From Magnetovibrio sp. (GTDB taxonomy: Bacteria; Pseudomonadota; Alphaproteobacteria; Rhodospirillales; Casp-alpha2): 64,000 nt of DNA. Shown in pieces: positions 9,710 to 59,882 of this stretch; positions within the stretch are counted from its first letter, which is position 1, and each line of letters begins with the position of its first letter. The position numbers and the translations under genes are program-made. The stretch spans positions 1 through 64,000 of the forward strand of contig NZFO01000006.1 of the NCBI GenBank assembly GCA_002690705.1. Direction: 5' to 3'. The notes beneath the pieces were generated by a model. That model was not told where the DNA came from. It worked only from the letters and a program-made list of their open reading frames with translations, and did no database searches.

Positions 9710-11602
9710 ATGACCAACAAAAGATCAACCCCCGGCGCGGGCAAGGCGCACGAGGGCTGGAATGCTTCTTTCGACTTCGAAGATCATACCAAAATCGAGT
9801 GCGCCCTTCAACTTGCGGCAAGGGGTTTCAATGTCTTTCCGGTGCGGGAAAACAGTAAAATGCCGTTGATCGAACAATGGCCAAGTCGCGCGACAACTGA
9901 TCCGAAACAGATCGAAAGATGGTGGGATGAATGGCCTGAGGCGAACATTGGGATCTGCACGACAGACTTTAAGGGCCGACATCTTGTTGTTGTCGATCTT
10001 GACGTAAAGGATGGCAAGGATGGTGTCGCCCTTTTCTATGACAAATTTCCGGTCGAGGATTTCCCAGAGAACACGTTCACGGTCGAGACGCCATCCGGAG
10101 GACAGCACCTTTATTACCTGTCAGAAGGACGCTACCGGTCAGGTACGCATGTCCTTGCCATTAATATCGACATTCGGGCCACTGGCGGATTTGTGGTCGC
10201 ACCTGGATCAACGATCGACGACAAGCCGTATAAAGTTATCGACGCCTCACCAATGAAAACGCTGCCGCCCGGTGGTGCAGCAAGGCTCAAGCCGGTGAAA
10301 GCAAAAGCGGAGATCGTTTCGCTTGCCTCTGTGCATGAGGGTGACCCAAGGCGCGTTGAACGTGCGCGGGAGTATTTAGCAACCGCCGCACCCGCAATCC
10401 AAGGCCAAGGCGGCGACAATCATACCGTTGCGGTAGCTAATCAGCTTGGCGACCTTGGCATCTCACGCGAAACAGCGCTTAGCCTTATGGGCGGGGAATG
10501 GAATGAACGCTGTGAACCGCCGTGGGAACTGTCAGACCTGAAAACGAAGGTGTTCAGCGCATACAAGAGCCGAGAGAACCCGATCGGCTGCCGAACTGGC
10601 GCGTACCAATTTTCTGACGTGTCAGCGTTCGTCAGCAATCGCACAGCACCGGAACCAATCGTTAAAACCGATGGTATTCGCTTGCTGACTATCAGCGACT
10701 TGTTAAACAAGCCAGCGCCACGGTTTCTCGTACGAAACATGCTGCCGGAATTTGGTGTTGCGATCCTTGCCGGACAATCCCGGCATATGAAGTCGTTCTT
10801 GGCATTGTTGCTTGGAATGTCGATCGCCACGGGTCGAAAAGTTGGCGCCTGTAATGTCATTCAGAAGCCAGCTGTATATATGCTTAATGAAGGAGCAGCC
10901 GGTTTTGGCGCTCGTGTCCGCGCATGGTTGCAATTCAATGATATTGATCATGTGCCAAACTTCCGAGTTATCGAGCAAACTCCGAACTTGATGAACTCTG
11001 ACACTGCCGATGCATTCATTGCGGCAATCAACGAGCATCAATTTCATCCCGGCATCATCGTCATTGATACGTTTTCGAAAGCCACGATTGGAGGTGAAGA
11101 TAACAGCACAAAAGATATGGCCGAGGCGTTATCGAACGCGGAACGGATCGGGCGACACTTCAATTGTCTTGTGCTGCTGATCGACCATCTTGGGAAAGAT
11201 CCCAAGAAAGGTATCAGGGGAGCATATACGAAACTTGCGAACGCAGATGCTGTCGGGCTTGTCGTAAAGACTGGTAACACGGTTTCACTGTATATCGACA
11301 AAATGAAAGACGGCCCGGATGGCCAGACTTTCTACTTCGATATTAAACACGTCGAAACCCCAGGGGAGCAGGACACGACACCAGCGTTGTCAGCGCAATC
11401 GATGGACACGACACCAAAGCAAGCGGACTTCATTCGGAACAGGCTTGAGGCTAAAGGTGAGTTGACGCGGGAAGCCCTGAGGGCAGAGTTCCTTGAGATG
11501 TATCCGGGGCGAGTTAAGTCGTTCAATGAAACGCTTCGGCGTTTGGAGAAGTACAAAAAAATAATCCAGGAAAACGGCACTTATGTATTGGCTGGAACCT
11601 AG
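9710..11602 (+). CDS. Bifunctional primase-polymerase / RecA-fold ATPase replication protein
   Basis: This 630-residue protein joins an archaeo-eukaryotic-type prim-pol domain to a RepA-like (AAA_25) ATPase. Residues about 25-180 show prim-pol motifs: FPVRENSKMPLIEQW, catalytic D96-x-D98 in VVVDLDVKDG, TPSGGQHLYY, and RATGGFVVAPGS. Residues about 340-560 carry the ATPase domain with Walker B IIVIDTFSKA, LIDHLGKD and RGAYTKLANAD. The Walker A region (residues 355-362) reads GQSRHMKS, with methionine in place of the usual second glycine. The C-terminal 70 residues look like a winged helix. It follows the excisionase by 7 nt with a GAGGAG site. Such proteins start replication of satellites and plasmids; the repeat-rich stretch downstream is a candidate origin. 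Confidence 0.85.
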   Translation: MTNKRSTPGAGKAHEGWNASFDFEDHTKIECALQLAARGFNVFPVRENSKMPLIEQWPSRATTDPKQIERWWDEWPEANIGICTTDFKGRHLVVVDLDVKDGKDGVALFYDKFPVEDFPENTFTVETPSGGQHLYYLSEGRYRSGTHVLAINIDIRATGGFVVAPGSTIDDKPYKVIDASPMKTLPPGGAARLKPVKAKAEIVSLASVHEGDPRRVERAREYLATAAPAIQGQGGDNHTVAVANQLGDLGISRETALSLMGGEWNERCEPPWELSDLKTKVFSAYKSRENPIGCRTGAYQFSDVSAFVSNRTAPEPIVKTDGIRLLTISDLLNKPAPRFLVRNMLPEFGVAILAGQSRHMKSFLALLLGMSIATGRKVGACNVIQKPAVYMLNEGAAGFGARVRAWLQFNDIDHVPNFRVIEQTPNLMNSDTADAFIAAINEHQFHPGIIVIDTFSKATIGGEDNSTKDMAEALSNAERIGRHFNCLVLLIDHLGKDPKKGIRGAYTKLANADAVGLVVKTGNTVSLYIDKMKDGPDGQTFYFDIKHVETPGEQDTTPALSAQSMDTTPKQADFIRNRLEAKGELTREALRAEFLEMYPGRVKSFNETLRRLEKYKKIIQENGTYVLAGT

Positions 11603-11609
11603 TTTTAAC

Positions 11610-11711
11610 GGCAACAAGGGTGTTGTCGGACCTTCGGTAACAAGGGTGTTGTCGGCGGGTGTCTGAAAACCTTAAAAACCAAGGGCGGCTGCGGGACACA
11701 CCCTTGTTGCC
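11610..11711. repeat. Iteron-like direct repeats with an inverted partner
   Basis: GGCAACAAGGGTGTTGTCGG at 11610-11629 recurs with one mismatch at 11636-11655, period 26 bp. A 14-bp inverted copy of its first part lies at 11698-11711 (ACACCCTTGTTGCC). The repeats begin 8 nt after the prim-pol stop. Confidence 0.7.
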
Positions 11712-11738
11712 ACGCAGTTGCCGCCACTCGGCAACACA

Positions 11739-11763
11739 CAAGCATCCCTGAAAGGGATGCTTG
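11739..11763. terminator. Perfect hairpin downstream of the prim-pol gene
   Basis: An 11-bp perfect stem (CAAGCATCCCT pairing with AGGGATGCTTG) with a GAA loop. The following T-run is poor, so it may be a factor-dependent terminator or part of the origin structure rather than a classical intrinsic terminator. Confidence 0.45.
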
Positions 11764-12055
11764 TTACCGTGACAGCAGATTTAAAATAAGACCAATGGTT
11801 AAATCAGATAAATTGTGCCGCGTCGTTGCGGCTATGCGATCACGTTATATTGCGGTGTCGCGGTGTTATGGTTTTGTACTTTTGACGTACCTTACTCAAT
11901 CGCACGCTGCTCGATTAGAAATTATTCATTTCAGCCGCCTGACCGCAGTACAACGGTAAACCAGGTAGCACGTGACACTGTAGCAGGTGTCATTGTTTTG
12001 GCTTGGCCAAGGAAACCAAGGCGTTGCCGCTATGAGGGAGATTACTTAAACCCGT

Positions 12056-12074
12056 TAGGCAACCCTTAGGCAAC
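12056..12074 (-). repeat. Paired GTTGCCTA words, internal inverted copy
   Basis: On the plus strand TAGGCAAC occurs at 12056-12063 and 12067-12074, again 11 bp start to start. This is the same pair found near both ends of the element but in opposite orientation. It may be an additional regulatory or excision site, or the relic arm of another element end. Confidence 0.5.
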
Positions 12075-12412
12075 ACATCTGCCCTTTTTGCCCCTAAACG
12101 TGATCAATTTTGACTTACCGTAGCAAATAGTCCGGTCACGGTTGGTATCTTATCTGCACTTTGTGACTTCTCTCCCCTACCCCCGCAAATTCGCATAGGG
12201 GGGGATTGGGGGTACGGGGGGCAAAAATTGCGCGGCCGGACATATCGTTATGGTGGTCACGCAACAAAATCGCACCACTGCAAAAACCCGCCCTAAAAAA
12301 TATTCTGAAATTCTCAATAATGTGGAATATAGGAAGCAACCTATAGGTTATAATACATATTCTTAAACAACCTTTTTTATGTTAGTCTGTGGGCAGAATA
12401 GGAGTTCGCAAC

Positions 12413-12763
12413 ATGACGGCTGGCAGACCCAAAGGTTACGAGAAAACAGGCGGCATCCAAAAAGGTGGGCGCAAATACCAGACCGCCGCTGTAAAGGATG
12501 CAATCGTTCGTGTTTTTCACGAAGTGAATAAGGGTGACGATCGTTACCTCCACTCCCTGGCTATAAACGAAAAGAAACTTTTTCTCGATCTGGTGAAGCG
12601 CTGCGTTCCGCAAGAGATGGAAATTCAAACCGAGACGAAGGTCACGGTGGATCTCGGTGCTGCAATGGCTGAGGCTGAGCGTCGTTTAGCAGATAATTAT
12701 CCAAAACAAATTGATGCGACACCAAGCGATTTCACCGTGGTTGAAACTGCAGCGAAACCATGA
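12413..12763 (+). CDS. Small phage-type hypothetical protein (terminase-small-subunit-like)
   Basis: A 116-residue basic-to-acidic protein starting MTAGRPKGYEKTGG, followed by QKGGRKYQTAAVKDAIVRVF. This opening (AGRPKG...GGRxKG...TAAVKDAI) is common in small proteins of phages and satellites that lie near terminase genes, including DUF5681-like proteins. The later part (AMAEAERRLADNY) is helical and acidic. A frame extends up to 12389, but TAGGAG upstream of the ATG at 12413 supports the shorter form. Its role here, DNA packaging or regulation, is a guess from family resemblance. Confidence 0.5.
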   Translation: MTAGRPKGYEKTGGIQKGGRKYQTAAVKDAIVRVFHEVNKGDDRYLHSLAINEKKLFLDLVKRCVPQEMEIQTETKVTVDLGAAMAEAERRLADNYPKQIDATPSDFTVVETAAKP

Positions 12764-53160: not shown

Positions 53161-54525
53161 TTACGGTTTAGCGGGGTGCTCTTCGACGTACGCAGTCGAT
53201 GGCGGTTTAGTTATATAATCAGGGTCACTGAATATCTGTTTGAGATAAGCAAGATTTGTTGATGGACCCGCGATATGCACTTCCTGAAGAGCAGATCTCA
53301 TGGTGTTAATCGCTTCACGCCTGTTTTTTCCCTTAGCAATAACTTTGGCGATCATTGGATCGTAATAAGGAGTAATCTCATCCCCTAATTGAACACCAGT
53401 ATCAATTCTCAGGTTTGACGAGAGAGGAGGCATGTCAAACGTTATAATTTTGCCTGGTGACGGGAGGAATCCCTTTTCTGGTCGTTCAGCATAAACTCGT
53501 GCTTCAATTGCTGCTCCACCACAAGAAATTTTTGCTTGTGACGCGGTTAAGAATTCTCCTCGAGCGAGATTAATCTGCCATGCAATGAGATCAAGACCGG
53601 TAACCATCTCTGTAACAGCGTGTTCAACCTGAATGCGGGTATTCATCTCAAGAAAAAAGAATTCGTTACTGGTTCGGTCATATATAAATTCAACGGTTCC
53701 CGCGCCCGCGTAGCGCACTTCTCTCACCAAAGCGAGCGCTGCGCTGTGCATTTTTTCTCTTATATCTCGTGGTATTTCAGCTGCCGGTGCTTCTTCAATT
53801 ATTTTTTGAAACCGCCGTTGTATCGAGCAATCCCGATCAAAGAGATGCACACCATTACCATCTCCAAAGCCAAAAATTTGAACCTCAATATGGCGCGCAT
53901 CGGCAATATATCGCTCAAGATATACGGTTGGGTCGCCAAAACTTCGTTCGGCTAAATTTTGCGCTGTTAAAATTTGCCTCTCAAAATTATTTAATTCGTC
54001 AACGGGTTGCATGCCGATCCCACCGCCACCAGCCGTAGCTTTTATTAACAACGGAAAACCAATTGAATGAGCAATGTCAGAAGCGCCATTGATGTTATTT
54101 GGTGAAATCCGTGGGCTGCCCGTTAAGACTGGAATATTTGAAACTTTGGCAATTTCACGGGCTTTCTGCTTATCGCCCATCGATGCAATGGTCACCGGTT
54201 TCGGGCCTATCCAATACAATCCAGTGGCAAGAACATTCTCAGCAAATTGAGCGTTTTCAGCCAAAAACCCGTACCCGGGATGAATAGCGTCTGCATTCAA
54301 GCTTTGGGCTGCAGAGAGCACTGCGTCCATATTCAAATAGCTTTTTTGGGCTGCTGGGGGACCAATTGCATAGGATAGATCTGCAGTTTTTACGTGGAGA
54401 GCTTCTTGATCTGCTTCCGAATAAACCGCAATGGTCTCGATGCCAAGATCACGGCACGTGTGAATGATACGGCACGCAATTTCGCCACGATTGGCAATAA
54501 GTATTCTTCTAATACTGCTATTCAT
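53161..54525 (-). CDS. Biotin carboxylase subunit of an acyl-CoA carboxylase
   Basis: A 454-residue ATP-grasp enzyme that carboxylates protein-bound biotin using bicarbonate and ATP. Motifs are RRILIANRGEIACRIIHTCRDLGI, DAIHPGYGFLAENAQFAE, the ATP loop KATAGGGGIGMQ, HIEVQIFGFGDG, RDCSIQRRFQKIIEEAPA, and MNTRIQVEHAVTEMVTGLDL. It resembles AccC but lacks a fused biotinyl domain, which is encoded separately at 56105-56326. The ATG at 54525 overlaps the preceding stop by 1 nt (TAATG). Last gene of a six-gene operon. Confidence 0.93.
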   Translation of the reverse strand: MNSSIRRILIANRGEIACRIIHTCRDLGIETIAVYSEADQEALHVKTADLSYAIGPPAAQKSYLNMDAVLSAAQSLNADAIHPGYGFLAENAQFAENVLATGLYWIGPKPVTIASMGDKQKAREIAKVSNIPVLTGSPRISPNNINGASDIAHSIGFPLLIKATAGGGGIGMQPVDELNNFERQILTAQNLAERSFGDPTVYLERYIADARHIEVQIFGFGDGNGVHLFDRDCSIQRRFQKIIEEAPAAEIPRDIREKMHSAALALVREVRYAGAGTVEFIYDRTSNEFFFLEMNTRIQVEHAVTEMVTGLDLIAWQINLARGEFLTASQAKISCGGAAIEARVYAERPEKGFLPSPGKIITFDMPPLSSNLRIDTGVQLGDEITPYYDPMIAKVIAKGKNRREAINTMRSALQEVHIAGPSTNLAYLKQIFSDPDYITKPPSTAYVEEHPAKP

Positions 54526-56123
54526 TAAGGCGCTACCCCAGACCGACTTCGCTGACCAAGTCCAATTTTGAGCCGCTTTTCGGCTAATGCTATATACTCG
54601 CAAAGTATTGGGCGTGTCTCTCTTGGATCTATAATTTCTTCAACCGCCAGCGCCTCCGCTGTTCTAAATGGCGATGAATACTCCCTAAACTCTTGTTCAA
54701 GTTCTTTTTCCCGGACCTTGGGGTCATCTGCAGAGGCAATATCACGACGAAACGCCGCAGCAACTCCCCCTTCAACTGGCAGTGAGCCCCATTCACCACT
54801 TGGCCAAGCAAGTTTGAGGTCAATATCTTTCTTATTACAGGTAGCCATTCCAGCCATGCCGTAGCATTTTCGAATGACTACCGTAATGGTTGGTATTTTA
54901 AGCTGTCCTGCCACATAAACTGCGCGCATCCCCTCACGCAGTGTTCCCTCGCTCTCTGCCTTTAAGCCAACCATAAAGCCAGGTACATCGACCAAAAATA
55001 CAAGTGGAATATGGAAGGTATCGCAAAGCTCCATGAAATGTATTTGCTTTCGCGCTGCATCAGCGTCCATTGCGCCACCATATATTTTTGGGTTATTGGC
55101 GATAATACCTACAGGTTTTCCGCCCAATCTCACCAGTGCGGTAATAATAGCTTTTCCATAAGTAGAGCGAATCTCAAAATAGGATCCTTTATCGACAATC
55201 AATTTGATTATTTCTCGCATGTCATAAGGTTGTGTTCTTTTTTCGGGCACCATGTTCAATAAAGCATCTTCGCACCGGTCCAGCGGATCATTTAATTCCA
55301 ACATCGGTGGAAGTTCCCAGACATTTTGAGGCATAAAACTAAGAAACGTTCTGATCTGTGCAAAGGCGTCGTGTTCTGTTGATGCAATGTTATGAATGGC
55401 TCCGGCTTTGTTTACCGCGACATTGGGACCCCCTAATTCCTCTTTTGTGATGATTTGCCCGAGTGAGCGTTTGACTACGGGAGGCCCAGCGGCGAATATT
55501 TGGCTTGATCCCTCAACCATTACCGAAAAATGAGACAAAATTGCGCGTCCGGCAGGCCCGCCTGCTGCTGTGCCGAGGACTGCCGACACAACCGGTACCT
55601 CGCCAAGTAATTCGACAGATCTCTCGAATCCGTCAACGCCGGGAAATACAACAAAACCGCGTCGTTTCGCCGATGTAACTGATCCCCCGGCACCATCAAT
55701 TAGATTAATCAAAGGCATCTTGTAGTGGTGTGCCAAGTCCTCAATGTATCCGCCTTGGCCACCCTTCCGTCGTTGTGCGCCAGAGCTCGTGCCGCCTCGG
55801 ACAGTAAAGTCTTCTCCTCCGATTGCAACTGGTCTGCCATTTATGCGTCCTGTTCCTGCGACGTAAGTGGAGGGGACAAGTTTTTTAAATTCTAAGTTAT
55901 CATCATACTCACCAGTTCCAGCCAAGGATCCAATCTCGCGAAAACTTGCGGTATCTGAGATGGCGTCAATGCGTTCGCGGATGGTCAATCGACCAGCATC
56001 GTGTTGACGTTGCACATTCTTTATACCGCCCATTTCTAAAGCATCAGCTCTGCGTTTGGCTAACTCGTCGAGTTTCTGCTTCCAATAGTCGGGTGCGTTT
56101 CCGTCTAAGTCTCGATTAGGCAC
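54525..56123 (-). CDS. Acyl-CoA carboxylase carboxyltransferase subunit A of two
   Basis: A 532-residue full-length carboxyltransferase of the propionyl/methylcrotonyl-CoA carboxylase beta type, with two crotonase-like domains. The N domain has RLTIRERIDAISD, FTVRGGTSSGAQRRKGGQ, IDGAGGSVTSAKRRG and AVLGTAAGGPAGRA. The C domain has KLIVDKGSYFEIRSTYGKAIITAL, GIIANNP, VFLVDVPGFMVGLKAESEG and VIRKCYGMAGMATC. It differs clearly from the second carboxyltransferase at 56353. The start (MPNRDLD) overlaps the biotinyl gene by 19 nt. Substrate acyl-CoA unknown. Confidence 0.9.
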   Translation of the reverse strand: MPNRDLDGNAPDYWKQKLDELAKRRADALEMGGIKNVQRQHDAGRLTIRERIDAISDTASFREIGSLAGTGEYDDNLEFKKLVPSTYVAGTGRINGRPVAIGGEDFTVRGGTSSGAQRRKGGQGGYIEDLAHHYKMPLINLIDGAGGSVTSAKRRGFVVFPGVDGFERSVELLGEVPVVSAVLGTAAGGPAGRAILSHFSVMVEGSSQIFAAGPPVVKRSLGQIITKEELGGPNVAVNKAGAIHNIASTEHDAFAQIRTFLSFMPQNVWELPPMLELNDPLDRCEDALLNMVPEKRTQPYDMREIIKLIVDKGSYFEIRSTYGKAIITALVRLGGKPVGIIANNPKIYGGAMDADAARKQIHFMELCDTFHIPLVFLVDVPGFMVGLKAESEGTLREGMRAVYVAGQLKIPTITVVIRKCYGMAGMATCNKKDIDLKLAWPSGEWGSLPVEGGVAAAFRRDIASADDPKVREKELEQEFREYSSPFRTAEALAVEEIIDPRETRPILCEYIALAEKRLKIGLGQRSRSGVAP

Positions 56124-56326
56124 AGGACTTGGTCCTCCTCAACTGAGCCTTCGGCCACGACCTTTATTTCGGAGAGTGTTCCCGCCACTGGCGCTTCAAC
56201 CGGAATTTCCATCTTCATGGACTCCAGAATCATAATCAAGTCGCCTTCTTCAACGGCATCACCAACTGATCTTTCTATTTTCCAGACTGATCCGATGACT
56301 TCGGATGTGACCTCGCGTATCACCAT
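56105..56326 (-). CDS. Stand-alone biotinyl (BCCP-like) domain protein
   Basis: A 73-residue biotin carrier with the canonical attachment motif MILESMKMEIPVEAP (Lys of MKM biotinylated). Hammerhead strands lie on either side (GSVWKIERSVGDAVEEGD, GTLSEIKVVAEGSVEEDQVL). It is just one biotinyl domain, without the AccB N-terminal part. It carries carboxybiotin between the biotin carboxylase and a carboxyltransferase. It lies between the two carboxyltransferase genes and overlaps one of them by 19 nt. Confidence 0.92.
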   Translation of the reverse strand: MVIREVTSEVIGSVWKIERSVGDAVEEGDLIMILESMKMEIPVEAPVAGTLSEIKVVAEGSVEEDQVLCLIET

Positions 56327-56352
56327 TTTGTGTGACTCCAGTATTTGTGTTT

Positions 56353-57891
56353 TTAATATGTTGTTGGCCAGGCAGACATGCGGTGTTCACCAATACCATC
56401 TGAATACCGCAGTTGATGGATATCTAATTGATCGATGAGGTAGCGGCGGGTTTCGGCAGGAGAAATTACAGCTTGAATACCATAAATCTCAGCAAGACCG
56501 TAGGCAGAATTATCTTTTTCCATCTGCGTACGAATATCGCTTTTCACATCCTCATTAGTTTGCTGACCCCAAGTGACAATTTCGGTTGCGAAATGCGGGT
56601 CCATAAAGCTGATTTCTGCGGTTGGCCATGCAACGACATCATCAGAATTTCGACCACCACCCATATTGAGGTATGCTTGGCCATAAGTTTTTCGCATAAT
56701 CACTGAAAATTTTGGTACCGTACACATCTGCAGCGCCTGCATAAAGTTCATGATTTTACCCGGCGCTTTTTCTTTTTCACCCTGTATACCAATCACGAAT
56801 CCCGGTGTGTCTACAAGTAGTATAATGGGAATATTAAATGAGTCGCACATGACTGTGAAGCGAGTGGCCTTCTCACATCCAGCGACATCTAATGCGCCTG
56901 CCTTGGCAATGGGGTTTGAGGCCAGGAATCCAACCGTTTTACCCCCAAGGCGTGCAAGTCCAACAGAGATCGTTTTTCCAAACTGCGGTTTGAATTCAAA
57001 AAAACTGTCAATGTCCGCAATACATTTAATGATCTTTCGGACGTCGTACCCACGCGTGCGCGACACTGGAAGGATATCAAGTATGTTCTCCCCTAACGTC
57101 TCGCTGCCAGCGGGAATTGACGCTAAAGGCGGAGGCTCTTTGCAGTGAGACGGCATGTAACTCAAAAAACGTTGGATTTCTGAAATAGCCTCTTCGTCTG
57201 TTTCGACAACCCGATCTACGAGACCTGTAATGCGTTCATGTAGTTTCCATCCACCTAAATCCTCGGCCTCAACTTTTTGTCCTATTGCATAAGAGGCCAG
57301 CCCAGAGCTGGCGACTGCCATAATTGCGCCCTTCCGCATCACAGTGAAGTCCGCTAGGCAGTTGTACCAAGCGGACGAGCCGTAACACTGCCCAAGTGCT
57401 GCTGATGCCCAAGGTGTCTCACGATTCCGAACGTATTGCTGAGGGTCATGGCCAAGATTTACACCCATTCCCTTTGCCCCCATGTTATCTGGCATACGCG
57501 CTCCAGAGGATTCACCAAAAAAAACAAGAGGGAATCCGCGCTCCGTTGCAACCCGTTTAACATGTCCGATTTTTTTCATATTCGTTGCGCTGGATGACGC
57601 GCCTTTGGTTGTGAAGTCGTTAGAGACAACACCAACTTGCCGACCAGAGACCTTTCCAAAACCTGCAACTTTTCCGTCTGCAGGTGTTTTATTCTGATCC
57701 TCCGGGACCAACGACGAAACAGCAAGTAGCCCTGTTTCAATCCAGCTACCGGGGTCTATGAAGGCGTCAATTCGAGATCGAGCATTCATTATGCCCCGCG
57801 TGTTCCTTTTTGCTAGACGATCCGGCCCTCCCATCAATCGTGCTTTATCCTCACGCTTCTTTAAGTCCTCGAGGATATCATCAAAGCTCAT
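56353..57891 (-). CDS. Acyl-CoA carboxylase carboxyltransferase subunit B of two
   Basis: A 512-residue carboxyltransferase, full length, of the PCC-beta type but distinct from its neighbour. It shows KRNTRGIMNARSRIDAFIDPGSWIETG, SNDFTTKGASSSATNMKKIGHV, FFGESSGARMPDNMGAKG, IKCIADIDSFFEFKPQFGKTISVGLARLGG, LLVDTPGFVIGIQGEKEKAPG and IMRKTYGQAYLNMGG. The active-site framework appears complete. Its start overlaps the CaiB stop by 4 nt (ATGA). A second full-length carboxyltransferase in one operon is unusual; the two may form a heteromer or act on two CoA esters. Confidence 0.9.
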   Translation of the reverse strand: MSFDDILEDLKKREDKARLMGGPDRLAKRNTRGIMNARSRIDAFIDPGSWIETGLLAVSSLVPEDQNKTPADGKVAGFGKVSGRQVGVVSNDFTTKGASSSATNMKKIGHVKRVATERGFPLVFFGESSGARMPDNMGAKGMGVNLGHDPQQYVRNRETPWASAALGQCYGSSAWYNCLADFTVMRKGAIMAVASSGLASYAIGQKVEAEDLGGWKLHERITGLVDRVVETDEEAISEIQRFLSYMPSHCKEPPPLASIPAGSETLGENILDILPVSRTRGYDVRKIIKCIADIDSFFEFKPQFGKTISVGLARLGGKTVGFLASNPIAKAGALDVAGCEKATRFTVMCDSFNIPIILLVDTPGFVIGIQGEKEKAPGKIMNFMQALQMCTVPKFSVIMRKTYGQAYLNMGGGRNSDDVVAWPTAEISFMDPHFATEIVTWGQQTNEDVKSDIRTQMEKDNSAYGLAEIYGIQAVISPAETRRYLIDQLDIHQLRYSDGIGEHRMSAWPTTY

Positions 57892-59132
57892 TCAGTTTTC
57901 TCCTTTTCTGGTATTTCCCTCCCATGGATAATCCCTTCGCGCGCAAGGTCGTCGATCTCCTTATCATTGATTTTGAGGACGTCGCTTAATACCTTGGCTG
58001 TATCGTCGCCAATGCCACGACCTGCCCAACGAATTTTACCGGGGGTATTTGAAAGTTTTGGAACCACGCCGGTCAAAGTAACGCCTCCTAAATTCTCGTC
58101 GTCTAGATTAACGAGCATATCCCTGGCATGGTAATGGGGGTCGGCGAAAATATCTTTCACTGTATAGATTCGGGCAGCTGGAACCTTGGCTTGGCTCAAA
58201 GCGATTTCAACATCCTCTAGATCAAGCGTATGAGTCCATTTTGCAACTATTTCGTCGCACTCAACCTGATTTTCCGCGCGAGCAACGGCTGATGAAAAGT
58301 TTGGAATTTTAATCAATTCTGGCTGCCCCATGGCTTTAGCAAGTCTTCCGAAGACTGCGTCCGATGCGGCAGCAAGTAATATATAGCGATTGTCTCGGGT
58401 GGGATAAATAGAGTTAGGTGAATTTCCTGGTAACAACGGACCAGCCCTCTTCGCGATAACACCCAACTTTTCAAAGGCTGGAATATGGGGCTCCATAAAG
58501 CTGAAAGACCCTTCATAAAGAGCAGAGTCAATCACTTGGCCTTTGCCGCTTTTGGCTCGTTCGTGCAAAGCCATCATGGCGCCGAAGGCGCCGTACAGGC
58601 CGGCAATGTAATCGGCTAATGATGTTGCTGCGCGCGGAGGTGGGCGATCTGGATCACCGGTAATCTCCCTTAATCCACTGACTGCCTCACAAACCACCCC
58701 GTAACCGCCTCGGTCCGAATAAGGACCGTCTTGTCCAAAACCGCTGATACGAACCATGATTAAACCAGGGTTTTTTGCAGACAGAGTTTCATACCCAAGG
58801 CCCCATTTTTCCAGCGAACCAGCTCGGAAGTTTTCTACTACTATGTCCGCTCTGACACACAGTTGTTTAACCAGCTGGCGACCTCTCTCCGTGCGTAAGT
58901 TTATTGATACGATTTTTTTTCCGCGTTGAATTGACGCGTTGTATAGCGAATACCCTTGAAAGCGATGGGAAAACGAACGAACAGCATCGCCCTCCGCCTG
59001 CTCTACCTTAATGACATCTGCACCAAAATCTGCCATTAACCGAGCACAAAAAGGCCCTGCGATCGTTGAGCCCAATTCAATCACTTGGAGACCTGAAAGT
59101 GGGCCAAATTCAGTTTCTTTTTCTTTATTCAT
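57888..59132 (-). CDS. CaiB/BaiF family (type III) CoA-transferase
   Basis: A 414-residue type III CoA-transferase that moves CoA from a CoA ester to a carboxylic acid. Motifs are LSGLQVIELGSTIAGPFCARLMADFGADVIKVEQAEGDAVR, SINLRTERGRQLVKQL, VVENFRAGSLEKWGLGYE, ISGFGQDGPYSDRGGYG, and the catalytic Asp region SLADYIAGLYGAFGAMMALHERA. It joins the GntR stop by a 1-nt overlap (TGATG) and overlaps the next carboxyltransferase by 4 nt. Placement ahead of a carboxylase suggests it activates the acid that is then carboxylated (inference). Confidence 0.9.
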   Translation of the reverse strand: MNKEKETEFGPLSGLQVIELGSTIAGPFCARLMADFGADVIKVEQAEGDAVRSFSHRFQGYSLYNASIQRGKKIVSINLRTERGRQLVKQLCVRADIVVENFRAGSLEKWGLGYETLSAKNPGLIMVRISGFGQDGPYSDRGGYGVVCEAVSGLREITGDPDRPPPRAATSLADYIAGLYGAFGAMMALHERAKSGKGQVIDSALYEGSFSFMEPHIPAFEKLGVIAKRAGPLLPGNSPNSIYPTRDNRYILLAAASDAVFGRLAKAMGQPELIKIPNFSSAVARAENQVECDEIVAKWTHTLDLEDVEIALSQAKVPAARIYTVKDIFADPHYHARDMLVNLDDENLGGVTLTGVVPKLSNTPGKIRWAGRGIGDDTAKVLSDVLKINDKEIDDLAREGIIHGREIPEKEKTE

Positions 59133-59812
59133 CACATGAGATACTTCCGGTATTCGAAAAACCAAGCCCTCGCACTTTCAATATTTTGGCGTTTTAACCG
59201 CTCCGCTTTTTCTGCTTTTCCAGATTGCATTGCAGCGAGGATTTTGCGGTGTTGGTGCATGCCAGTTTCGGCGCGCCCAGGTACCAAAATGAGCCGGCGA
59301 ATTAACACGCGAGTTCGATCATAAAGACTGTTTAAAAGGTCATTTAAAAGTTGATTATCAGCACTGATAAAACAGCGTTGACGAAAAACGTAAATGGCAT
59401 TTTCATAGGCATCAAGATTATAATCTTGAATTTTTTGTTCCATGTCGTCGCCGAACAAATTAATCAAGTCCCCCCAGGATCTAGTTGGTGATTTTTCAGT
59501 TGCTAATCGCACAGCTTTTGCCTCTAGCACTTCGCGCACTTCAAATAACTCCTCGATTTGTTGTGCTTCGAGCCGTGTGACTATGGCGCCACGGTTAGGG
59601 ATGCGCTCGATTAGGCCGCGCTCCTCTAAAACACCAAAAGTATCTCGAATGCGCGCTCTTGAGACCTGAAACTCACCAGCTAAGGCTTGTTCACGTAAGG
59701 GTGTGCCGGGCGGCAGATCTTGCTCGACGATACGACGACGCAATTCCTTGAAAATGAATTGATTGCCTAACAAAGCCATGCTGGGTTGTTTCTTTGATTT
59801 ATTCCTTAGCAT
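59132..59812 (-). CDS. GntR-family (FadR/FCD) transcriptional regulator
   Basis: A 226-residue regulator. The N-terminal winged helix-turn-helix (PPGTPLREQALAGEFQVSRARIRDTFGVLEERGLIERIPNRGAIVTRL) is followed by the helical FCD ligand-binding domain (IEELFEVREVLEAKAVRLA...). AAGGAGG 5 nt upstream sets the ATG at 59812. It is the first gene of the CaiB/carboxylase operon and probably controls it by responding to the acid or CoA ester. FCD domains often bind carboxylates through a metal. Confidence 0.9.
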   Translation of the reverse strand: MLRNKSKKQPSMALLGNQFIFKELRRRIVEQDLPPGTPLREQALAGEFQVSRARIRDTFGVLEERGLIERIPNRGAIVTRLEAQQIEELFEVREVLEAKAVRLATEKSPTRSWGDLINLFGDDMEQKIQDYNLDAYENAIYVFRQRCFISADNQLLNDLLNSLYDRTRVLIRRLILVPGRAETGMHQHRKILAAMQSGKAEKAERLKRQNIESARAWFFEYRKYLM

Positions 59813-59882
59813 TACCCCTCCTTGATCTTACAAAGAAGGTCGAATATGTAAGCAATATTGTCAACAATATTATTACTCATTT

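Follow-up and report, generated by a model that had tools for sequence, protein, structure and literature searches.

The DNA analysed here, a 64,000-nt stretch of contig NZFO01000006.1 of Magnetovibrio sp. (assembly GCA_002690705.1; the window), carries on its minus strand a six-gene operon (53161-59812) that very probably constitutes a dedicated system for CoA activation and carboxylation. Our preferred reading, held with about even confidence, is that it encodes a dedicated, inducible catabolic acyl-CoA carboxylase in which two different full-length carboxyltransferases, CT1 and CT2, are built into one hetero-oligomeric core; on the joining of CT1 to CT2 within such a system we stand evenly poised. 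The reading draws on the domains and signature motifs of the encoded proteins, the conservation of the gene set, the co-inheritance of CT1 and CT2 and an operator-like site, all of them read from sequence.

The operon and its proposed function

From the promoter side, the genes encode a GntR-family (FCD) regulator of 226 residues (59132-59812; PF00392 and PF07729), a family III CoA-transferase of the CaiB/BaiF/Frc type (57888-59132; PF02515, 378 bits), CT1 (56353-57891; 512 residues; PF01039, 310 bits), a stand-alone biotin carrier protein (BCCP) of 73 residues with the biotinylation motif ESMKME (56105-56326; PF00364, 58 bits), CT2 (54525-56123; 532 residues; PF01039, 360 bits) and a biotin carboxylase (BC) without a fused carrier domain (53161-54525; PF00289, PF02786 and PF02785). 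CT1 and CT2 are both full-length carboxyltransferases of the type found as the beta subunit of propionyl-CoA carboxylase (PCC). An earlier note on this DNA, made from the letters alone, had proposed these six genes and their identities. All six are open reading frames (ORFs) at those positions on the single strand, and their Pfam matches (GntR and FCD, CoA_transf_3, Carboxyl_trans twice, Biotin_lipoyl, and Biotin_carb_N, CPSase_L_D2 and Biotin_carb_C) lie above the curated cut-offs. The short overlaps that the note described are found at four of the five junctions and measure 1-19 nt: 1 nt between the GntR and CaiB genes with the CaiB start at ATG 59132 (34 nt with the mechanical TTG start at 59165), 4 nt between CaiB and CT1, 19 nt between BCCP and CT2 with the CT2 start at GTG 56123, and 1 nt between CT2 and BC with the BC start at ATG 54525 (79 nt with the mechanical TTG start at 54603). 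CT1 and BCCP are separated by a gap of 26 nt.

The catalytic parts other than the carboxyltransferases are well preserved. The Asp in the CaiB stretch SLADYIAG, which we take to be the catalytic Asp, is invariant across the 76 proteins aligned, the window included, and together with the CoA_transf_3 domain it places the protein among the family III CoA-transferases. Among the seven NCBIfam matches listed for it, no model reaches its cut-off to serve as a substrate equivalog; the best, succinate-glutarate CoA-transferase, scores 256 bits against a cut-off of 750. The BCCP motif ESMKME is likewise present in 76 of 76 aligned proteins (window included), and the BC stretch LExNTRxQVEH, LEMNTRIQVEH in the window, in 52 of 54 including the window, the other two reading IEMNTRIQVEH. 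The best solved matches of BC include the alpha subunit of methylcrotonyl-CoA carboxylase, first among the six matches listed. All the parts of a biotin-dependent acyl-CoA carboxylase are encoded, namely BC, a carrier with a biotinylation lysine and a carboxyltransferase.

Because each catalytic part keeps its signature stretch, the straightforward reading would be uptake, addition of CoA and addition of CO2. An organic acid would be imported into the cell, as is suggested by the TRAP-TAXI, TTT or NMT1-type ABC transporter genes that many related loci carry. The CaiB-type transferase would move CoA from a CoA-ester to the acid, and BC would use ATP to load CO2 onto the 73-residue carrier. CT1 and CT2, as the two kinds of subunit of the single PCC-like core that we infer, would then, in the direction proposed here, hand the CO2 to the acyl-CoA. 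The GntR protein would control the operon at an upstream palindrome, probably as a repressor released by the acid or its CoA ester.

The host genome (3.03 Mb in 21 contigs) has seven carboxyltransferase matches. Besides CT1 and CT2, these are a paralogue of CT1, two full-length genes on contig C10, which by their motifs we take to be PccB-like and MccB-like, and two half-length matches of the AccA/AccD kind. Given these five others, the operon does not appear to be the housekeeping carboxylase set and is probably an addition to what looks like the usual one.

Conservation of the gene set

Genome contigs were scanned with an alignment of eight paired CT1 sequences (patterns CYGSS[AS]WY and V[ML]CDSFNI), which gave 409 relatives; the best 80 were analysed. 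Their labels are nearly all proteobacterial, the exceptions being a member of the Gemmatimonadaceae (L199), one of SAR324 (L210) and one labelled only 'bacterium' (L140). The strains represented include Sneathiella, Halomonas korlensis, Billgrantia endophytica, Nitratireductor indicus, Roseovarius pacificus, Ottowia thiooxydans, Polynucleobacter nymphae and Parapusillimonas granuli, and two loci apparently repeat contigs of the genome samples described below (L138 is G371:C107 and L161 is G202:C217). CaiB and BCCP are each found in 75 of the 80 loci, GntR in 63 (matches as weak as 27% included) and BC in 53, and many of the contigs are short. CT2 is found in 71, a figure biased upward, like the CT1 motif counts given below, because the query consisted of paired CT1s and used these patterns; in 46 loci at most 500 nt separate it from CT1. 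The complete six-gene order, whose recurrence the earlier note had proposed as a check, stands on a single strand in 15 of the 80 loci and is therefore not a chance arrangement; some of these loci carry transporter-type genes between CT2 and BC.

The two carboxyltransferases are also closely co-inherited. The correlation of their distance matrices (r=0.869, n=72) is the highest among the 15 gene pairs, which include CT1-CaiB (0.802), BC-GntR (0.771), CT1-BC (0.739) and CT1-BCCP (0.680). All 15 correlations have p=0.001 by permutation, and the short carrier makes for a noisy comparison.

Besides the bias of the query, several observations weigh against a joint core. Part of the CT1-CT2 correlation is explained by linkage in a single operon. 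Nine of the 80 loci are without CT2. Four of them nonetheless count for the joint core: in L180 a CT2 is present that seems to be cut by the contig end, and in L182, L189 and L216 a CT2 of 62-63% identity lies elsewhere in the genome. The genome of L213 holds only a relative of 42%. Polynucleobacter nymphae (L167), two betaproteobacterial bins (L168, L169) and Parapusillimonas granuli (L185) have no CT2 genome-wide, their best matches reaching 34-35%, and these four do carry CT1, CaiB, BC and BCCP.

Two wider genome samples, 240 from the class and 150 from the order, point the same way. With thresholds of at least 46% identity for the CT1 family and at least 40% for the CT2 family, a CT1-family gene was found in 9 of the 240 and 8 of the 150, 16 genomes in all, and CT2 adjoins it in only five (G000, G202, G044, G297, G371), some of the other contigs being short. 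Two genomes, G241 and G246, have three CT1-type genes each and no CT2 at E 1e-95. The wider samples thus weaken the case for an obligate pairing of CT1 with CT2. All nine CT1 genomes of the class do have a CT2-family gene somewhere, whereas only 48 of the whole 240 have one; in the order the figures are six of the eight CT1 genomes and 8 of the whole 150. Genome size and kinship are uncontrolled in both comparisons. In a sample of 398 genomes of the phylum, the host's own included and three candidates per genome scored, CT1 was found at E 1e-140 in two genomes and CT2 at E 1e-180 in one, the host's own; the close module is consequently sporadic.

These observations bear most directly on a different reading, in which CT1 and CT2 are two separate homohexameric carboxyltransferases that share BC and the carrier and serve two acyl-CoAs or two successive steps of one pathway. 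We regard this as possible, though short of an even chance. Since CT1-type genes occur without CT2, in G241 and G246, in the four genomes named above and as the CT1 paralogue of the host, which stands beside a ligase and a carrier, CT1 must be able to work alone. CT1 of the four genomes keeps the GSS and GQ motifs discussed below, and more distant solitary CT1s keep G-S, several having G-R in place of G-Q. Within the close clade, however, CT1 and CT2 mostly occur together and show the tightest distance correlation of all gene pairs, and a second pathway is not evident, no annotated neighbour enzyme being found in more than 8 of the 80 loci (several neighbour clusters are unannotated).

The CT1 paralogue of the host lies about 37 kb further on (match at C3:95152-96546, gene at 95101-96630; 52% identity). 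In locus L034, which spans G000:C3:84001-104000 and holds it at 11098-12633, no CT2 was seen adjoining it. Its neighbours are an ADP-forming acyl-CoA ligase-type gene, a small biotin carrier and TctA/TctC transport genes, as well as a TauD-family gene, an enolase-superfamily gene and a flavoprotein. Distant solitary CT1s beside ADP-forming acyl-CoA ligase genes (for example in L005, L029, L081 and L082) tend to have YGRAY where paired CT1s have YGQAY, which may mark a different substrate or partner. In two other loci (L102 8099-11820 and L103 3973-7105), two CT2-family genes of different subclades stand side by side and form another full-length pair.

A further reading would run the system in reverse or sideways, as a biotin-dependent decarboxylase or transcarboxylase in which one carboxyltransferase takes CO2 from a donor to load the carrier and the second passes it on to an acceptor. 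Two carboxyltransferases with a common short stand-alone carrier can be likened to transcarboxylase, a 12S/5S/1.3S system, and for CT1 and CT2 alike the best structural matches include the 12S subunit. BC with its conserved stretch would nevertheless be superfluous in such an enzyme, and it belongs to the set in 53 of the 80 loci; moreover, both carboxyltransferases are of the Carboxyl_trans family, with no other type in the operon. This reading seems to us very improbable indeed.

CT1 and CT2 as two carboxyltransferase families

In a tree of 95 carboxyltransferases (quick IQ-TREE, SH-aLRT support), the CT1 type forms a clade of 27 rows with support of 100 (30 rows with support of 99 when three distant relatives are included) and the CT2 type one of 40 rows with support of 100. 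The clades are distinct from each other and from the PccB-like and MccB-like rows; by sequence, CT1 and CT2 are thus two separate, strongly supported families. They are unlike the half-length carboxyltransferases of the AccA/AccD type, covering positions 3-477 (CT1) and 1-481 (CT2) of the 493 positions of PF01039. Structure prediction gives each of them the fold of a complete PCC-beta-type subunit: the AlphaFold2 models, computed as single chains, have pLDDT values of 88.9 (CT1) and 87.7 (CT2), match PCC-beta structures along the whole chain (best Protein Data Bank (PDB) matches 1vrg with TM 0.88 for CT1 and 7w5u with TM 0.87 for CT2) and also match the long-chain complex with two carboxyltransferases (9yx1, 9yx2). 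Most of the CT1 proteins shown end in a conserved tail, G[IV]GxHx[ML]xxWPT[ST][YF], which in the window lies at 56356-56397.

The two families differ from PccB-like proteins in their active-site motifs. Where the latter have AGGAVY and YGGAY, CT1 has YGSSAWY (YGSSxWY in the family) and YGQAYLNMGG, and CT2 has AAGGPAG and YGMAG. The altered glycines are presumably the oxyanion-hole residues known from PCC structures. Across the best-80 set with the window included, CT1 has G-S in 80 of 81 proteins and G-Q in 79 of 81, counts that arise partly by construction from the scan pattern CYGSS[AS]WY; of the 72 CT2 proteins, all have G-G and 69 have G-M, the remaining three being truncated or badly aligned there. 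Inactivity of one carboxyltransferase, which the earlier note had named as fatal to its proposal, is not what these motifs suggest: both proteins keep conserved active-site motifs, and for this reason neither looks like a decayed copy.

It could still be that one carboxyltransferase is catalytic and the other a structural or regulatory subunit, since both depart from the usual glycine pairs, CT1 with G-S and G-Q against the PccB-like G-G, and CT2 with G-M in the C-terminal site. These departures are themselves near-invariant in both families, however, and with PccB-invariant columns kept at a mean of 0.44-0.50 per domain, decay is not clearly further advanced in any one domain of the two subunits. 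We consider such a division distinctly improbable.

The active sites of carboxyltransferases of the PCC-beta fold lie in the dimer interface, according to a passage of PMC4347857, so two co-inherited families could build mixed sites. In the most specific form of this idea, CT1 and CT2 would be an obligate heterohexamer. Each of its sites would combine an N-domain from one subunit with a C-domain from its partner, the oxyanion holes (GSS/GQA and AGGPAG/GMAG) being rebuilt, and its substrate would be an imported acid that no described route carboxylates. We think this whole picture rather unlikely. A division of duties between the N-domain of CT1 and the C-domain of CT2, or the reverse, was looked for in the domain comparison and was not seen, and each domain of CT1 and CT2 has 24.7-27.4% identity to the MccB-like protein of the genome.

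Occurrence on plasmids

Six plasmid records hold a CT2 of at least 60% identity, and five of these also hold a CT1 of 54-55%; four of these five were searched whole. Three Cupriavidus plasmids carry CT1, CT2 and CaiB as a group, and one Variovorax plasmid (PBL-E5) carries such a group twice, its two CT1s being paired with CT2s of another subclade (42-43%). On the plasmids examined, the carboxyltransferase genes are annotated only as 'carboxyl transferase domain-containing protein'. The large Cupriavidus plasmids carrying the module are L028, L031 and L032, the last two typed conjugative, which suggests that the module may move between strains.

Two plasmid cases add to the points against a joint core. 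The 65% CT2 of Variovorax PBL-E5 lies about 80 kb from the nearest CT1, and the plasmid of Cupriavidus sp. P-10 has a CT2 without a CT1. The P-10 plasmid has a 95-residue MaoC remnant where the other Cupriavidus plasmids have MaoC, TctC and CT1, which suggests a deletion. In this locus (L087, pMTS3), CT1 and most of MaoC are gone between CT2 and BC, and bioA, bioF, bioD and bioB follow downstream.

Regulation, transport and neighbouring genes

An 8+8 palindrome, AATATTGTCAACAATATT, lies upstream of the GntR gene (59854-59871, strand not assigned) and is a probable operator, as judged from its recurrence. Of the 63 loci with a GntR match, 32 have the core motif TTGTNNACAA in the 400 nt that precede it, whereas about 1.2 loci would be expected from a background of 0.048 per kb. 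The longer palindrome ATTGTYRACAATAT, searched on both strands, occurs at a single place in the 3.03-Mb host genome; among six other genomes, four have it at one place each, G396 has it at two and G202 lacks it. Around the extra place in G396, the only nearby ORFs matched by probes were an ABC ATPase (LivG-like, 35%) and a BioA-like ORF. This restriction of ATTGTYRACAATAT to one place in most genomes fits a local, autoregulated switch.

Transporter probes, whose figures overlap and include weak matches, detected TAXI-type binding proteins in 18, DctM-type permeases in 20, NMT1-type binding proteins in 17 and TctC-type proteins in 24 of the 80 loci; BioY and BioB were found in four loci each. 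A TAXI binding protein is encoded, for instance, in L148 (13434-14432; Sneathiella litorea) and an NMT1-type protein in L192 (7197-8204). The most recurrent neighbour enzymes among annotated families are a thiamine pyrophosphate (TPP) enzyme in 8 of 80 loci and PrpD in 6, and the fact that none exceeds this frequency suggests that the product may enter central metabolism directly. The TPP enzyme was considered for a link to oxalate; at 1e-60 it matches BbmA and acetolactate synthase in the PDB. FAD-oxidase_C genes, which we take to be glycolate oxidase, stand beside distant CT1 genes in L041 and L042.

The operon is flanked in the window by genes for formimidoylglutamate deiminase, formate-tetrahydrofolate ligase and ketopantoate hydroxymethyltransferase. 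Deducing the substrate from these flanks was set aside, as the labelled neighbour lists of related loci show other genes beside the module.

A sulfonate as the substrate is only a lead. A TauE/SafE-type gene directly follows CT1 in L173, L185, L190 and L204 (Burkholderiales-type; Pfam run on the L190 copy), and YeiH-type genes are present in L146 and L152. UxaA-type small and large subunits and an Ldh-family gene are found near CT2 in L086 (11617-16380; Variovorax) and L162 (10324-12909; a Burkholderiales bin; Pfam and NCBIfam run on these copies). The counts among the 80 loci are seven for TauE, two for YeiH and one for UxaA. We read these families as sulfonate-related, the UxaA and Ldh genes recalling a sulfolactate set; a carboxylation of this sort is not known to us from any sulfonate route.

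A very hydrophobic protein of 452 residues is encoded in L192 (9868-11226) and has relatives (26-48%) in 17 others of the 80 CT1 loci; at the thresholds applied, neither Pfam nor NCBIfam nor the PDB gave a match for it.

Relation to known carboxylases

The earlier note had suggested a new carboxylase acting on an acid activated by CaiB, on the grounds that known acyl-CoA carboxylases have one PCC-beta-type subunit and that biotin carriers are commonly fused or AccB-like. The conserved module, in which a CaiB-type CoA-transferase is joined to BC and two full-length carboxyltransferases, bears the suggestion out in part; its premises are partly wrong. Stand-alone carriers are known, since two curated NCBIfam models describe proteins of 70 (NF006079) and 71 residues (NF004547). 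The 73-residue carrier shares their length class and domain; it scores 67 and 65 bits with them, below the cut-offs of 95 and 75, and by those models is a non-member.

As to the single subunit, passages of PMC4347857 and PMC4064979 describe a mycobacterial long-chain enzyme that combines AccD4 with AccD5, the former reporting their reciprocal interaction and the latter their co-immunoprecipitation. Over the six PDB entries 9t97, 9tdm, 9yx1, 9yx2, 9yx4 and 9yx5 there are 24 D5 and 12 D4 chains, that is, 4:2 per entry. Like the operon, this carboxylase (AccA3, AccD4, AccD5, AccE5) has two different full-length PCC-beta-type carboxyltransferases, and its chains are matched by CT1 and CT2 both in fold and at the sequence level, with about 30-32% identity to the 9yx chains. 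Its alpha subunit has BC and carrier fused, whereas in the operon BC lacks a carrier domain and the carrier is a separate 73-residue ORF. An epsilon subunit is associated with the mycobacterial enzyme (a passage of PMC4347857), and none of the six genes of the operon encodes one. The mycobacterial enzyme serves mycolic acid synthesis, as passages of PMC4347857 and PMC4064979 state. For the operon, the CoA-transferase, the regulator and the transporters near its relatives suggest a catabolic role.

PCC itself provides close structural relatives, the PCC-beta chains 1vrg, 3n6r and 6ybq being among the best matches of both carboxyltransferases. PCC has one carboxyltransferase and a fused BC-BT-BCCP alpha subunit, and CT1 and CT2 fall outside the clade of PccB-like rows; the genome, moreover, has a PccB-like gene of its own. 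Lacking both the fused alpha subunit and membership of the PccB clade, the system belongs neither to the long-chain carboxylases nor to PCC. Methylcrotonyl-CoA and geranyl-CoA carboxylases (MccB, AtuC) resemble it as catabolic acyl-CoA carboxylases, but CT1 and CT2 lie in other clades. No operon of this kind was found by searches aimed at it in open PMC papers, judged partly by titles and the starts of abstracts. The parts are of known kinds; we class the combination of two new carboxyltransferase families with a separate BC and carrier and a CoA-transferase as a distinct form of acyl-CoA carboxylase.

If the preferred reading of a joint CT1-CT2 core is true, these two uncharacterised families form a second lineage of carboxylases with two carboxyltransferases, distinct from the mycobacterial one. 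This lineage would serve catabolism and not lipid synthesis, and would be spread over Proteobacteria, partly on plasmids. The presence of such loci in named strains, among them Sneathiella, Halomonas korlensis and the CT2-less Polynucleobacter nymphae, makes both the substrate and the roles of the subunits accessible to experiment.

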